64,000 nucleotides of DNA, taken from contig SVSB01000004.1 in NCBI GenBank assembly GCA_015064505.1, positions 19,710-83,709 on the forward strand, given 5' to 3'. Every line of letters starts with the position of its first letter. Position 1 is the stretch's first letter. The position numbers were made by a program, and so were the translations under genes. Below, piece after piece: positions 3,553-14,120 of this stretch. The stretch comes from Oscillospiraceae bacterium (GTDB taxonomy: Bacteria > Bacillota > Clostridia > Oscillospirales > CAG-272). The notes under the pieces are model-generated. The model made no database searches. It was not told the DNA's origin and saw only the letters and a list, made by a program, of their open reading frames with translations.

Positions 3553-4581
3553 ATGAGAAAGTATCTTTTACCCGAAAGCGGTAACTACTACAAGGCAAAT
3601 CTTCATTGCCACACCACGGTATCCGACGGAAAGCTTCCGCCCGAGATAGTGAAGAAGGTGTATAAGGAAAAGGGATATTCCGTGGTTGCGTTCACGGATC
3701 ACGATATTATGATCCCCCATCCCGAATTGAAGGACGAGGAATTTCTTCCCCTTTCCGGCTACGAGATGGAGTTCACGGAGCCGCCCCGTACGGACGGATA
3801 CTCCAAGCGCACCTGCCATCTCTGCCTTATCGCTCCCACGGCGGAGGACACGGATCAGGTCTGCTGGCACCGCGAAAAATATCTTTTCGGCAACGCGCCC
3901 TATTACAGAGACAGAGCGAAGTTTGACGACAGCATTCCCGATTTTGAGAGGGAGTACTCCGTTGAATGCGTAAATACCGCTATAAAGACCGCCGAGGAGA
4001 AGGGATATTTCGTTACCCTCAATCATCCCGATTGGTCAAGAGAGCTGATATCCGATCTCGTACAGTACGAGGGAATGGACGCAATGGAGATAGCAAACTA
4101 CTCCTGCCTCGTTGGCGGATACGGGGATTACGTTCCGTGGCTTTACGACGAGATGCTCCGCGTTGGCAAGACCGATCTGTTCGTTATAGGTGCAGACGAT
4201 AACCATAACGTCCATCCTTTGGGTCACGCCCGCTTTGATTCCTGCGGCGCGTGGACCATGATCAACGCGGAAAGCCTTACCTACGAGAATATCTTCGCTT
4301 CTCTCAAAAAGGGAGATTTCTACGCCTCCCGCGGCCCCGAGATAAAGGAGCTGTACGTTGAGGACGGTAAGCTGTACGTAAGCTGCTCCGATGCATTCTG
4401 CATCAAGGTGGTCTGCCCCCTGAGAAAGGGCCGCTCCGCTTATAATAACGCAGGCGGGGTCATCAATTCCGCGTCCTTCCCCCTTTCAAGGGAGGATAAA
4501 TACATCCGCGTTACGATAGTGGATGAAAGAGGTAATACCGCAGATACCCATTATTATTCCGTTGACGAGCTGTTGGGATAA
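3553..4581 (+). CDS. PHP-domain metal-dependent phosphoesterase
   Basis: PHP motifs NLHCHTTVSDGKLPPE, FTDHD and LNHPDW, plus DDNHN; RBS ggagg. Confidence 0.85.
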   Translation: MRKYLLPESGNYYKANLHCHTTVSDGKLPPEIVKKVYKEKGYSVVAFTDHDIMIPHPELKDEEFLPLSGYEMEFTEPPRTDGYSKRTCHLCLIAPTAEDTDQVCWHREKYLFGNAPYYRDRAKFDDSIPDFEREYSVECVNTAIKTAEEKGYFVTLNHPDWSRELISDLVQYEGMDAMEIANYSCLVGGYGDYVPWLYDEMLRVGKTDLFVIGADDNHNVHPLGHARFDSCGAWTMINAESLTYENIFASLKKGDFYASRGPEIKELYVEDGKLYVSCSDAFCIKVVCPLRKGRSAYNNAGGVINSASFPLSREDKYIRVTIVDERGNTADTHYYSVDELLG

Positions 4582-4621: not shown

Positions 4622-5206
4622 ATGGATGGACTGAATAAAAAAACGTTACCTCAACGGAAGAATCCGAGGCTTGCGGGATTTGATTACTCCTCGGGTGTAT
4701 TCTTCGTAACGGTCTGTACCCAAGACAGAAAAGGATTGTTGTCTGACATTTCGGCAGTAGGGGAGGGGCTTGCTCCTCCCGAAGAAATATCCGTTCTGCT
4801 AAAACCCTGCGGTGTGATAGCCAAAGAACAACTTTTTGCTCTTGAAGATCGGTTTGACGGACTGAAAATAGTCGATTACGTAATAATGCCCGAACACATA
4901 CACGCCATTATCGTTTTGCCGCATAAAACCCGAAGTATTCAGATGGCGGGAGGAGCAAGCCCCTCCCCTACCGTGGTAGATGATAGCAGATCGCACATAA
5001 GGGAGCTTGACAGAGTGATCTGTGCGTTCAAATCGTTGACTTCACGCCTGTGTAAACAACAGCACGGAACAGAAAAGATATTCCAAAGATCGTATTACGA
5101 ACACGTTATCCGTAATAATGACGATTATAGGCTTTGCCGGAATTACATCCTTGACAATCCCGAAAAGCGATTTCTTCAGGAATTACACCGGAATACCGAC
5201 AAATAA
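4622..5206 (+). CDS. REP-associated tyrosine transposase (Y1/IS200-like, RAYT)
   Basis: KNPRLAGFDYSSGVFFVTVCTQDRK and VIMPEHIHAIIVLP (HxH motif), QRSYYEHVIRNNDDY..YILDNPEKR; the ORF-track start at 4523 overlaps the PHP gene, internal ATG 4622 preferred. Confidence 0.85.
   Translation: MDGLNKKTLPQRKNPRLAGFDYSSGVFFVTVCTQDRKGLLSDISAVGEGLAPPEEISVLLKPCGVIAKEQLFALEDRFDGLKIVDYVIMPEHIHAIIVLPHKTRSIQMAGGASPSPTVVDDSRSHIRELDRVICAFKSLTSRLCKQQHGTEKIFQRSYYEHVIRNNDDYRLCRNYILDNPEKRFLQELHRNTDK
4757..4781 (+). repeat. REP-like inverted repeat, left arm, inside the RAYT ORF (GTAGGGGAGGGGCTTGCTCCTCCCG)
   Basis: Exact reverse complement of 4947..4971 (25/25). Confidence 0.9.
4947..4971 (-). repeat. REP-like inverted repeat, right arm, inside the RAYT ORF (CGGGAGGAGCAAGCCCCTCCCCTAC)
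   Basis: Exact reverse complement of 4757..4781. Confidence 0.9.
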
Positions 5207-5247
5207 AAAATCTCCCCGTGAACCGATCGGTTCACGGGGAGATTTTT
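5206..5247. terminator. Bidirectional intrinsic terminator between convergent genes
   Basis: Perfect palindrome aaaaatctccccgtgaacc-gatc-ggttcacggggagattttt. Confidence 0.9.
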
Positions 5248-5254
5248 CGTTTGG

Positions 5255-8200
5255 TTATTTGAGGGTTATGGTACCTCTCTCGCTGACGGCGAAGGCGCCG
5301 CTGTCGGTATTCTGTGCAAACGCCGCTTCAACTACGTATTCGCCGGGGATGGCGGTACGGATATAGTAGGAGAAGGAACCCGTATAGGTGCGGCTCACAA
5401 GGCCCGAAATACCTTTGGAGTCGTTATAACAGCCGAGATACCCTTCCATGGTCTGGGCGGAATTAGAGAGCCACAGATAAGAATTTTTTGAGTGTGTGGA
5501 GTTTGAGCCGTGGCGGAGGAAGCGCGCGCCCGAGGGGATGGTATCTGTAATTCTGAACTGCACGTTATCCTTATCGCTTACAACCTTATAGGAAACGGTA
5601 ACCAGATAGATACCGTTACCTGCGGGGACTACGGTCTTTTCTATATTCAGCTCGTCGCTTCTCATGTTCTCGCCCGCCGCCTCTTCGGCACTGCCGATAT
5701 AGCGCACGTATGCGGAAAGGTCCGTTGCCTCAAGCACCTCAAAGCTTTCAAATTCCGATTTCGTCAGCATAATACGGAAGAAGCTGCCTGCCTTGAGGGT
5801 CTGGGTCATCTTTTCGCCGCCCACGGTATATACGAGGGTGCTTTCCGTGCTTACGGGAGGAATATAGTTTGCAAGATAGAAAGCAATGGGCAGATCGTAC
5901 AGCTCCACGCGGGAGGTGTGGGAGAGCAGGAAGTCAACTATCAGCCTTGCATCATCTCTTGCACATACGGATGCGGAAATAAGCGCCGTTGCGGAGAGGG
6001 CAAGCTTTTCCTCGGTATTCATATTCTTCGTGCCGAAATAACCGAGCGTGCCGTTATCGGTAACGGTGAAGAGCTTGGAGCGGATGTCGGAATAGATCTC
6101 CCAAGCGGCACCGTGGTCGCCGATGACCGCAAAGGCGGCGGCAAGAACCAGCTTGCTTTCGTCGGAGAATTTCTCACAGCCCGAGGCGACTTGCTCAAGG
6201 TCGGTGAGTATCGGCTCGCCGCACGCGGCAAGTCCGAGCAGGGAATAAACCAGCTCCTCTTCGGTGCATTTGCCGTTTAAGTGGCGGTAGAAGGTGACGG
6301 AAAGCGTATCGAGCGTGGTTTTCGTTAACGCGTCCGTGCTGCAGGCGGCAATAAGGGCAGAAAGCTTAAGCTCGCCCGATGAGTAGGGAAGCAGGGAGAG
6401 AAGGCCGCTGTTCGTGTATCTTGAATTGAGCGCGGTCTTCTGCTTTGCACCGTCGCGGATAGTTCCCGTATAAGCGGAAAGAAGATTCTGCGCGGAAATC
6501 GATGCCGCAATGGCGTCGCTCCTGGTGCTTCCCGTATAGGAAAGTCTGTGGGCAAGATTTAAAAACTCGCGCTGTTCCTTGTTGACGAAGGAGAGGATCA
6601 CGGGATATTTTGCAGGGGTGATGTCCTTGATTTCCTTTATCTCCAAGGGCTTTTCTATCTCTGCGAGGACGGCGGTCTTAACTACGGAGAAGGGATACTG
6701 TACCGCATCTCCCGCGCCGAGGGCGGTGCAGGTAATGCGGAGCACGTATTCTCCTGCCTCCAGCTTGCCAAAGGAGAAATAGCTGAACTCGCCCGCCTTT
6801 GCGCTTGCGGTGAGATCCTTTATAAGCTTGCCATTTTCGTCGTATACTGCGGCAACGGTGTTAAAGCTCTTGCTTACTGCCTTGCCGTAAACGCGGGCAC
6901 TGCAGGTCACGTCGTCGCCTTCAATATAGCTTTCAAGATACCCGGCGTTGATAAAGAAGGGCAGAGTTACGATAACGTCCGTTGAAGCGTTGCCCGCAAG
7001 GATGCTTCCGTTGGTGCCGCCAAGGGAATAAGCGGCGGCAGCGGTAAGGCGCCATTCTGTAATATTATCGGGGGCGGTGAAGGTGAAGCTTGCACTTCCG
7101 TTTTCGCTTACCGTCATCTCGTATACGGGATTATCGGCAAAATAACTGCGCACGCGCACGTTATCGGCTTCAGCTCCGCCGCCGGTTGCTGTGGGGGCTT
7201 CCGTCATTGCAGCGTCCTCGGCAACCTCGTTTTTGCTCATTCCCGAATACAGATAGTATCTTGTGGGATCGTATGCGTAGAACAGGGAGAAGGACCAATT
7301 TCTTTCAAGAGATGGGGTACGGACGCCGCCGTAAAGGGCGGAAAGAATATCAAGGGTCTGATCGCCCAGAGCAAAGCACGCCTCGTCCACCACCGCAAGG
7401 GTCACTCTGGTGCCTACGGGAGCGGCTTTGCCGTTTTTGTCCGTGACCTTCACGGTAACGCTGACGGTATCTCCCGGCTTATATTCCGTTCCGTCGGGAA
7501 CTATCTCCAGAGTGAGTCCGCTGTTTTTCACGTAGTCGTAAAGGGGACGGCAGGAGATGAGATTGACGGAATTCTCTTCCACTACCGTAACGTTTACCGA
7601 AACGCCCGAAACGTATTCCTCTTTGTATGGCAATTCAAACTCGCGGTCGTTCGTAACGAAATGCTCGTAGGAATCGCGGCACAGCACCGTAACCAGGTAG
7701 CTGCGCAGCGTGTCGGTCGTTTCGGGGTATTCGGTAACGGTGAGGCGCATCGTATCGCCAACGGAGTACGCCTCCTTGTCGCAGGTCAGGGTAAAGCCTT
7801 CCCATGCGGCGTCGTAATTATCCACGTTGCGGCTTGTGGCGTTAACGCGGAGTGTGTAGTCCTTATAGGTGACCGTGTAGTAATAGTAACCGTTAAATCC
7901 CGCCTCGTTCTCAATATGCTCAAGGCGCATAACGCCGTCGTTAAAGAGGCGTACCTCGGACTTTACCACGTCCTCGCGTCTGTCGTAGGTGAATCTTTCG
8001 TTAGTAACCTTATTGATGGGATCGTATTCAACGCCCATGCTGCGGCGCACGTAGGTGACCTTGGTAAGGGTCACTCTTGCATCTCCGTCCATGGGCTTAC
8101 CCACGGTGTTTTTGGGGAAAACGGTGTAATTCAGATCGGCTTCGGTCTTTATTGCGGAGGTGTCAACCTTGTTAAGGAGCACCTTGCCGTAGGAAACGCC

Positions 8201-10312
8201 GTTTTCGTAAGCGGTTTCTGCAGTAAAGTAGAATTTGCTGTGTATATAGGTTGCGCTGTTTGAGATATACAGGCTTGCGGTTTCATTTCCCATAAGCTCA
8301 GCCGTTGCACTGACGTAGGTGGGATAGGTGGAGCTTACGTCGGGGCGGGGAAGCCTGTAGCTTACGGTTGCGGTGCCGTCCTTTGCGGTTGTAACCTCAA
8401 AATCCTTTCTGCTTCCCGGTACGTGTACGTACACGCGGAACTTAAGGCCCGATGCGGGAGTACCGTCAAAGAACGTGGCGTTAACGGTGATATTTGCGGT
8501 GTCGCCCGATTCGTAGAAAAGCTTATCGTAGGTGATATTTGCGGTGTAAACGGGCTTATCCTCTGCCGTTACGCGCACGAATTGAGAGGCGAGTATTTTT
8601 CCTTGCTCATCCGAAAACTGCAGGGTGATGCCGTAGCCGTAGAAGCCTTCAAGCACGTAGCTGCCCTCAAAATAACCGTCCTCGGCAACGGAAATGGGAT
8701 ATTTTGCGCCGCCGTAGTTGGTACGCAGCCAGATCTTCTCGGGCACCGTGCCGTCCGCAAGCATTATGATGCCGCTGAAGTTAACGGTGTCGTCACCGAA
8801 ATAAACGGAGCGGTCGGTAAACACGTAGGAATATCTCTGCTCTGCCGCAATGCCGTCGAGTCCGCCGGGGAACAGAAGCAAAGTGGACTTTCCGCTTTTG
8901 ATTTTGCAGATAGACGCCCTGCGGTCTTCGGGTACCTCAAAGCGGGCAACGCCGTCCTCTGCGGTCTTTGCCGTTTGCTTCGTATAGGATGCGGATGCGT
9001 TTTCCGTGGAGAAGTTCTGCTGTCTTGAGAAGAATTCCGCGGTTATTTCCGCGTTTTTGACGGGGGTCGCACCCTCGTGCGTCCAGATAAGAAGCTCCTT
9101 TTCCGTCTGCTCAAAGTAAGCGGAGATATCGCTTACCTGCAGAAGTATCTGGGTGGTTTCCTTTTCCGTTTTACCGCCAACCTTTATTTCAAGGGTAATA
9201 TCCGCAAGATAATAACCTGCGTCAAGCTTCGGAAGGTATGCAAAATGATTTCTGCCCGTGGTATTTTTATGATATTCAAGCTCTCCTGTATATGCTTTGG
9301 ATAGCCCTTGGCTTGGGTAGCGGTATGCCTCTCCCGTTGCGATAAGCTCCGCGCCCTTTTCGTTAAATTCCTTAACGGCGTTAAGCATCGCGTCTGCGTT
9401 TTTATAGGCGTATATGCTTGCGCTTAATTGCTTTATCTCCGCATTGTAATCTCTGTACGTGCCGAATGCAAAGGAGAACACTCCGCTCTCTCCCGTTCTT
9501 ACGGTAATGGGGGCGGGAGAAAGATTGATATAATACTTTTTGTCCGCTATGCTTCCCGCCTTGTCTGCGGAGGTGCGGAAGCGGATTGAAATATCGTTTT
9601 CAAGGGCTTCACCGTTTGCGGCGGGAAAGCCTTTTTTAACGGTTACGGTATATTCGGCGTTTTTGTCCAGATGCTTTTTGGGTATGACCGCAAGGCGCTT
9701 GCCGTTGGGGTAAAGCTCTGCGCTCCATTCAAAAGCGGGAGAAACGCTGATATAATCGGAAATATCCGTGCCGCTTTTTATCTGAGAGGTAAAGTCAAGC
9801 TCAATGCCGCTGTTAACGGGCACGTTGGTGGCAAGATCCGCGGGAATGGTGGAGGATACGGCGAATCTGCTCTCCGTCTGGAAGGCAAAGGAGATCTGCG
9901 CCTTTCCGTCGGTGCCGAGAGAAAGGCGGTAAACCGTTCCCGGATCAAGCTCATTTTCGGGAGTCGCTATATATTCCGTATCGGATACGCGGCTGATATT
10001 CAGGGATGCGGCGGGGGAAAGATAGAGATGCTCCTCCACCGTTTCCGTATTCGTCGGGGCGCTGAAGCGCAGAGTAAACTCCGTATTGGTGGGAATGGTT
10101 CTGCCAACGGAGCTTTTTGCCGTAACGGCAACGCTGCAGAGCTCCTCGGGAAGACCCATATTTGCCGCAGCGGTGCCAACCAAAGTGGATGGCAGCTCGT
10201 ATCCGTTACCTATATCAATGGTAACGGGCACCTTTTTCGGTGCGCAGGCAAACATAAGAGGGGCTACTGTCGTAATAACGAGAATGAATGATAAAAAACG
10301 CTTTAGCTTCAT
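5255..10312 (-). CDS. Alpha-2-macroglobulin family lipoprotein (MG2/A2M-like), apparently lacking a thioester
   Basis: 1685 aa; lipoprotein signal MKLKRFLSFILVITTVAPLMFACAPKK; Ig-like SAPTNTETVEEHL; A2M hallmark region TFTAPDNITEWRLTAAAAY and VTLPFFINAGYLESYIEGDDV. Confidence 0.85.
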   Translation of the reverse strand: MKLKRFLSFILVITTVAPLMFACAPKKVPVTIDIGNGYELPSTLVGTAAANMGLPEELCSVAVTAKSSVGRTIPTNTEFTLRFSAPTNTETVEEHLYLSPAASLNISRVSDTEYIATPENELDPGTVYRLSLGTDGKAQISFAFQTESRFAVSSTIPADLATNVPVNSGIELDFTSQIKSGTDISDYISVSPAFEWSAELYPNGKRLAVIPKKHLDKNAEYTVTVKKGFPAANGEALENDISIRFRTSADKAGSIADKKYYINLSPAPITVRTGESGVFSFAFGTYRDYNAEIKQLSASIYAYKNADAMLNAVKEFNEKGAELIATGEAYRYPSQGLSKAYTGELEYHKNTTGRNHFAYLPKLDAGYYLADITLEIKVGGKTEKETTQILLQVSDISAYFEQTEKELLIWTHEGATPVKNAEITAEFFSRQQNFSTENASASYTKQTAKTAEDGVARFEVPEDRRASICKIKSGKSTLLLFPGGLDGIAAEQRYSYVFTDRSVYFGDDTVNFSGIIMLADGTVPEKIWLRTNYGGAKYPISVAEDGYFEGSYVLEGFYGYGITLQFSDEQGKILASQFVRVTAEDKPVYTANITYDKLFYESGDTANITVNATFFDGTPASGLKFRVYVHVPGSRKDFEVTTAKDGTATVSYRLPRPDVSSTYPTYVSATAELMGNETASLYISNSATYIHSKFYFTAETAYENGVSYGKVLLNKVDTSAIKTEADLNYTVFPKNTVGKPMDGDARVTLTKVTYVRRSMGVEYDPINKVTNERFTYDRREDVVKSEVRLFNDGVMRLEHIENEAGFNGYYYYTVTYKDYTLRVNATSRNVDNYDAAWEGFTLTCDKEAYSVGDTMRLTVTEYPETTDTLRSYLVTVLCRDSYEHFVTNDREFELPYKEEYVSGVSVNVTVVEENSVNLISCRPLYDYVKNSGLTLEIVPDGTEYKPGDTVSVTVKVTDKNGKAAPVGTRVTLAVVDEACFALGDQTLDILSALYGGVRTPSLERNWSFSLFYAYDPTRYYLYSGMSKNEVAEDAAMTEAPTATGGGAEADNVRVRSYFADNPVYEMTVSENGSASFTFTAPDNITEWRLTAAAAYSLGGTNGSILAGNASTDVIVTLPFFINAGYLESYIEGDDVTCSARVYGKAVSKSFNTVAAVYDENGKLIKDLTASAKAGEFSYFSFGKLEAGEYVLRITCTALGAGDAVQYPFSVVKTAVLAEIEKPLEIKEIKDITPAKYPVILSFVNKEQREFLNLAHRLSYTGSTRSDAIAASISAQNLLSAYTGTIRDGAKQKTALNSRYTNSGLLSLLPYSSGELKLSALIAACSTDALTKTTLDTLSVTFYRHLNGKCTEEELVYSLLGLAACGEPILTDLEQVASGCEKFSDESKLVLAAAFAVIGDHGAAWEIYSDIRSKLFTVTDNGTLGYFGTKNMNTEEKLALSATALISASVCARDDARLIVDFLLSHTSRVELYDLPIAFYLANYIPPVSTESTLVYTVGGEKMTQTLKAGSFFRIMLTKSEFESFEVLEATDLSAYVRYIGSAEEAAGENMRSDELNIEKTVVPAGNGIYLVTVSYKVVSDKDNVQFRITDTIPSGARFLRHGSNSTHSKNSYLWLSNSAQTMEGYLGCYNDSKGISGLVSRTYTGSFSYYIRTAIPGEYVVEAAFAQNTDSGAFAVSERGTITLK

Positions 10313-13784: not shown

Positions 13785-14096
13785 AATAACCTCTCGCAAA
13801 TGGAATATAGTTTTAGTTAATAGAAGTATTTTATCATACCCCTGCGCGGATGTCAATACGGATAAGCCATAACCGTAGCCCCCATAGGGGTGTTTTTGTG
13901 CAAAAAACAAGGCAGAACCGTGCAGGATCTGCCTTGTTGTGATGGTGCGCGCATTGCCAAAGGCATCGCTAACCGTTCCCTGTCTTGTGAAAATAATGTG
14001 AAGAAAAGGCGGGGGAACGCAGTTCGCCCCTACGGGGAACCGCAGAAACCGTAGGGGACGGCTCCTAGACGTCCCGCAAATACGGCGAAGAAACAT

Positions 14097-14120
14097 CGGG
14101 AGGAGCAGCCCCTCCCCTAC
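14097..14120 (-). repeat. Third copy of the RAYT-internal REP-like repeat (CGGGAGGAGCAGCCCCTCCCCTAC)
   Basis: Matches 4947..4971 except for a one-base deletion (gcaagcccc to gcagcccc). Confidence 0.85.

Follow-up and report, generated by a model that had tools for sequence, protein, structure and literature searches.

REP-associated tyrosine transposases (RAYTs) are usually described as flanked by repetitive extragenic palindromic (REP) sequences, and how enzyme and dispersed repeats stay matched over the long term is an open question. According to Nunvar et al., RAYT open reading frames (ORFs) are always flanked by two inverted REPs, and RAYT and REP coevolve (PMC2817692). TnpA-REP acts strand-specifically on GTAG-tagged hairpins in single-stranded DNA (ssDNA; PMC8266576), and a GTAG tag followed by a hairpin-forming palindrome is the layout of GTAG-superfamily REPs (PMC3733652). 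Here, we analysed a 64,000-nucleotide stretch of DNA from an Oscillospiraceae bacterium (GCA_015064505.1, contig SVSB01000004.1, positions 19,710 to 83,709; the window hereafter), in which a RAYT-like gene at 4622-5206 carries an inverted REP pair within its own coding sequence. We consider it likely that this gene is an internalised REPtron, in which the cognate REP pair is maintained inside the RAYT ORF as a DNA substrate.

A RAYT-like gene with an internal REP pair

The ORF encodes a protein of 194 amino acids from the ATG at 4622, or of 227 amino acids if an upstream ATG at 4523 is used. Sequence-profile and fold comparisons with the PDB both rank 4er8, a complex of the E. coli RAYT with a REP hairpin, first. 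The NCBIfam RAYT model NF047646 matches the protein at E=6.4e-18 (65 bits; curated cut-off, 80 bits) and all 55 rows of our alignment A1 at E<=0.01, and Pfam Y1_Tnp scores 18.6 against a cut-off of 23. Judging from the conserved columns of the alignment, the gene carries the hallmarks of the Y1 fold, an HUH motif and a conserved tyrosine:

4622-5206, plus strand: RAYT-like HUH/Y1 transposase ORF, assigned by NF047646 and by PDB 4er8 (sequence profile and fold)
4757-4781, plus strand: left internal REP, GTAGGGGAGGGGCTTGCTCCTCCCG, exact match, coding for V46-G-E-G-L-A-P-P with its GTAG tag in codon frame 0
4889-4903, plus strand: codons of the HUH motif PEHIH (residues 90-94), between both REPs, near-invariant columns in A1
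4947-4971, minus strand: right internal REP, exact reverse complement of the left, coding for G-G-A-S-P-S-P116-T117
5144-5146, plus strand: codon of Y175 in the NYI..NP motif, candidate catalytic tyrosine, invariant column in A1

A preliminary description of the window had reported a perfect inverted pair of 25-mers in this ORF, and the pair is indeed exact at these positions and translated in frame as ...VGEGLAPPEE...GGASPSPTVV..., as claimed there. Dinucleotide shuffles of the window gave no match to the 25-mer, even with up to three mismatches, which rules out a chance origin of the pair. As ssDNA, each arm consists of an unpaired GTAG and an 8-bp hairpin (-5.7 kcal/mol), and both arms have the superfamily layout of a GTAG tag followed by a palindrome of 20-40 nt. 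In an AlphaFold2 model of the protein, built from an alignment of 55 relatives (pLDDT 87), the left REP codes for a turn that follows strand 41-46 and precedes strand 55-60; the right REP encodes a disordered loop, modelled with low confidence, that joins the HUH strand to the long helix 121-148. No GTAG hairpin adjoins the gene in the window; because the inverted pair lies inside the ORF instead, we class the gene as a variant working like a REPtron rather than as a canonical REPtron.

The internal pair is far more general than the window and marks a RAYT gene family in gut Clostridia. We scored the best inverted repeat in each of 178 RAYT-like ORFs from relatives, named genomes (genome_contigs) and a phylum-wide sample; the scores were bimodal, and a pair was called at 15 or above. 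This threshold was reached by 135 ORFs (67/70 from relatives, 65/80 from genome_contigs and 3/28 from the phylum-wide sample), nearly always with a GTAG hairpin pair at the same two protein sites, its position conserved and its tags facing outward as in the window gene. None of 30 codon-shuffled control ORFs exceeded a score of 11. The left tag precedes the HUH codons by a median of 126 nt, and the right tag extends to 68 nt beyond them. The pair-bearing genes have at least 68 distinct left arms between them, and a few further ORFs hold degraded pairs. The domain has a median length of 167 residues with the pair vs 159 without it, i.e., eight residues more. In a tree of 163 rows the pair was clustered, yet 19 changes were needed and support was weak, and a single origin is neither shown nor excluded by this tree.

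REPs on both flanks were found for 2 of 120 internal-pair genes vs 5 of 17 genes without a pair (p=3e-4; phylogeny ignored, as in the tests across genomes below). The internal pair thus seems largely to replace the flanking REPs. The preliminary description had the repeats tolerated as protein insertions; the insertion itself stands, but "tolerated" is too weak a word for a pair that is maintained.

Internal GTAG hairpins, of many types, likewise occupy the two sites in most RAYT loci of the complete isolate genome of Chakrabartyella piscis (CP092441.1, Lachnospiraceae; about 11 loci in 14 matching stretches). The exceptions are one locus with an interrupted left arm, one with both hairpins in the right loop and two that are frameshifted. 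This genome contains 98 REPs within three mismatches, mainly of two subtypes. The two arms differ from each other in one of its RAYT loci, L232; one subtype equals the left arm of this locus and the other is one base off its right arm. Misassembly of metagenome-assembled genomes as the source of the pair is ruled out by this complete genome. Two of its paralogues (L234 and L235, 68% identical) have the REP subtypes swapped between left and right arms.

Other arrangements were seen as well. In the RAYT homologues L146 (Poribacteria), L151 (delta), L152 (Omnitrophica), L190, L193 and L189, some of them from other phyla, GTAG hairpins occur only in the post-HUH loop and in varied arrangements. 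Two RAYT-like ORFs, L200 (G436) and L201 (G397), have very long in-frame insertions in this loop; in L200, inverted GTAG hairpins lie about 30 and about 570 nt past the HUH motif within a 389-aa open frame. In many relatives (e.g. L042, L045, L076) a conserved hairpin, TCGGCAGAG...CTCTGCCGA, lies immediately upstream of the RAYT start or overlaps it, and some of those also have GCATTTGTAATACAAATGC downstream of the gene; both are absent from the window gene. A plasmid search returned distant homologues only.

Conservation of the arms as DNA and the genomic REPs

Codon usage in the two segments follows the tags. In the left tag, valine is encoded by GTA in 127 of 128 genes and glycine by GGG in all 128, compared to 26% and 17%, respectively, elsewhere in the same ORFs, and in the right tag proline is CCT in 116 of 116 genes (22% elsewhere), with free variation at the third base of the threonine codon just outside the tag. 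While the left tag is in frame 0 in 129 of 132 genes, the right tag is in its main frame in 118 and in another frame in 14 of 132, and the peptides between the tags vary widely (VGEGLAPP, VGTGVLDCP, VGAIHESP).

The two arms of a gene are matched to each other. Among 96 clusters at 75% identity, the left-right arm distance averaged 0.96 per 20 nt, vs 10.0 when arms were permuted (minimum of 2000 permutations: 8.8), and a gene's own right arm was nearer than the right arm of its nearest relative in 60 cases vs 8. In sister genes both arms change in concert. Of 65 stem differences between non-identical arms, 50 preserve base pairing, far above random substitution (p=3e-5), which indicates that the local hairpins are kept even with the long-range left-right helix broken. 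Because the tag codons are fixed, the peptides and sometimes the frames differ, and stem changes are mostly compensated, selection on the two segments is, on sequence evidence, selection on DNA. The candidate processes that would keep the arms alike are selection, conversion and replacement mediated by the RAYT.

The source genome, a 2.46-Mb draft of 88.7% completeness, contains 15 exact copies of the 25-mer, 13 outside the gene and two inside, whereas the backwards-read control of the 25-mer has no match genome-wide. Classical REPs typically exceed 100 copies, and 15 exact copies are real but modest; there are fewer than the high number expected in the preliminary description, but they are not few. 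The genome has two further RAYTs, with internal REPs of other types, and those types are also present elsewhere in it. Across 97 genomes and four REP types, extragenic copies were enriched where a RAYT carries the same type inside (p=6e-4, 9e-3, 2e-4 and 9e-4; Fisher and rank tests), and the presence of any REP coincided with that of any RAYT (p=3e-18). G033 contains true REPINs: some of its REPs form inverted pairs whose spacers are homologous, and these occur at different places and in both orientations. In five genomes (G027, G031, G043, G053 and G011) the internal pair constitutes the only exact copies. One REPIN with a 23-bp spacer (L216-L219, G037) is nested in a longer repeat with terminal inverted repeats AAATTAGGATTTRTCG, resembling a miniature inverted-repeat transposable element that carries a REPIN.

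These data also bear on the earlier proposal that the enzyme gene harbours its own likely substrate repeat, translated as insertions in the protein. The proposal is supported: stems covary in both arms, codons are fixed at the DNA level, genomic REPs match, and the same hairpin pair sits in the same two loops of 135 ORFs. In homologues the segments do not behave as an amino-acid motif over unrelated DNA.

The remaining features of the window are as follows:

5206-5247, strand not assigned: perfect 21-bp hairpin and T-run right after the stop codon, a probable terminator (hairpin scan)
14097-14120, minus strand: third REP copy with one base deleted, in a cluster with GTAG hairpins at about 14009 and about 14051

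The third copy, noted earlier, is real; owing to its deleted base it is missed by ungapped searches. The region 14009-14120 comprises three different GTAG hairpins in alternating orientation, similar to bacterial interspersed mosaic elements, in which the other two hairpins are unrelated to the third copy. Convergent with the RAYT gene, the minus strand of 5255-10312 holds a 1685-aa ORF that looks, by sequence inspection only, like an alpha-2-macroglobulin-type bacterial lipoprotein.

Proposed mechanism and alternative readings

In the reading we favour, the inverted REPs usually found flanking a RAYT gene would have moved into its coding sequence, into two loops that bracket the HUH core. The encoded RAYT probably binds each arm, a GTAG-tagged hairpin, in the form of ssDNA and nicks it; by analogy with TnpA-REP, it is plausible that a RAYT recognises the ssDNA arms of its own gene. 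Since enzyme and substrate would be one sequence, they could not become unlinked, and this linkage may keep RAYT and REP matched, such that a change in specificity would involve both arms together. The internal arms share their outward polarity with REPINs elsewhere in these genomes, and the scattered REPs and REPINs most likely arose from this system in the past, possibly by cleavage of the internal arms and copying out. Several points weigh against this reading. The window protein stays below the curated cut-offs for both RAYT and Y1_Tnp, exact extragenic copies are modest (0-48 across genomes), and two genomes (G019, G069) hold REPs without a detected RAYT. In addition, the tests across genomes ignore phylogeny, the comparison group of genes without a pair is small, and REPIN spacers are unrelated to the RAYT interior, so that the internal pair itself may not have moved.

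The pair could instead serve autoregulation, with hairpins or a long left-right helix in mRNA or DNA letting RAYT or the ribosome limit expression and with genomic REPs being secondary. Indeed, the RNA of 4740-4990 folds with a 25-bp left-right helix (-92 kcal/mol, z=-6). We nevertheless regard this as unlikely, given that genes with differing arms give up this helix and keep the local hairpins, that a fixed GTAG tag is what recognition by a RAYT would lead one to expect, that the genomic REP type tracks the arms, and that the depletion of flanking REPs is left unexplained; autoregulation may act in addition to a substrate role. A doubtful extension of the substrate reading is that the REP DNA also codes for two loops that help the enzyme to recognise the same hairpin; if true, a single change in sequence would adjust both the substrate and its enzyme. 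Passive selfish insertion, in which RAYT genes are frequent landing sites for REPs but two tolerant loops are the only places where these persist, would fit a turn and a low-confidence loop as sites, the homologues from other phyla with REPs at the right loop only or otherwise arranged, and the known intragenic REPs (PMC3733652), for which Rickettsia palindromic elements offer a likeness. We judge it improbable, as 135 ORFs have both sites filled, with a single polarity and for the most part a single frame, the arms match within each gene, hairpins and tags are conserved while peptides change, and several genomes have no exact copy beyond the internal pair.

Two further readings were rejected. 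That the two REPs delimit a mobile cassette with the HUH core inside, as their REPIN-like outward polarity might suggest, is very improbable: the source genome has no extra, solo fragments of the core, and REPIN spacers are unrelated to the core. That the segments are conserved peptides, with DNA likeness as a by-product, deserves next to no credence: V46-G47 and P116-T117 are nearly invariant, but codon choice is fixed only inside the REP tag, between-tag peptides differ, and the 14 genes with a different right-site frame, together with the codon data, speak strongly against this reading.

Comparison with described systems

We found no account of a conserved cognate REP pair inside RAYT genes in the open-licence part of the literature, to which our search was limited. 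If enzyme and substrate are one inseparable sequence, dozens of natural REP types, each paired with its own enzyme, would form a natural set for decoding REP recognition and for testing RAYT-REP coevolution, including several internal-pair RAYTs in a cultured isolate. The genes are also a clear example of strong selection for DNA structure acting on a protein-coding sequence.

With the IS200/IS605 elements (IS608, ISDra2) the gene shares the Y1 HUH fold and presumed action on ssDNA hairpins. In those elements the end hairpins flank the gene, whereas here hairpins lie within the coding sequence, and no left and right end pair of that type was seen at the window gene. The RAYT/TnpA-REP REPtron (e.g. 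E. coli yafM, PDB 4er8) has in common the HUH/Y1 fold, GTAG hairpin REPs, a gene-linked inverted pair and agreement of REP type with the RAYT of the genome; it differs in that here the pair is inside the ORF and translated as two loops, and REPs on both flanks are rare. GTAG-superfamily REPs and REPINs (PMC3733652, PMC3116915) likewise have the GTAG tag, palindromes of 24-27 nt, inverted pairs with outward tags and RAYT-specific families, but are mostly located between genes, whereas here the enzyme gene itself has a pair as a fixed component. In-frame translation of palindromic repeats inside ORFs is shared with intragenic REPs and with Rickettsia palindromic elements. Those are spread over many genes and sites, whereas the pair described here keeps to two fixed positions, in a gene whose product is the presumed enzyme of that very REP, and varies in concert.
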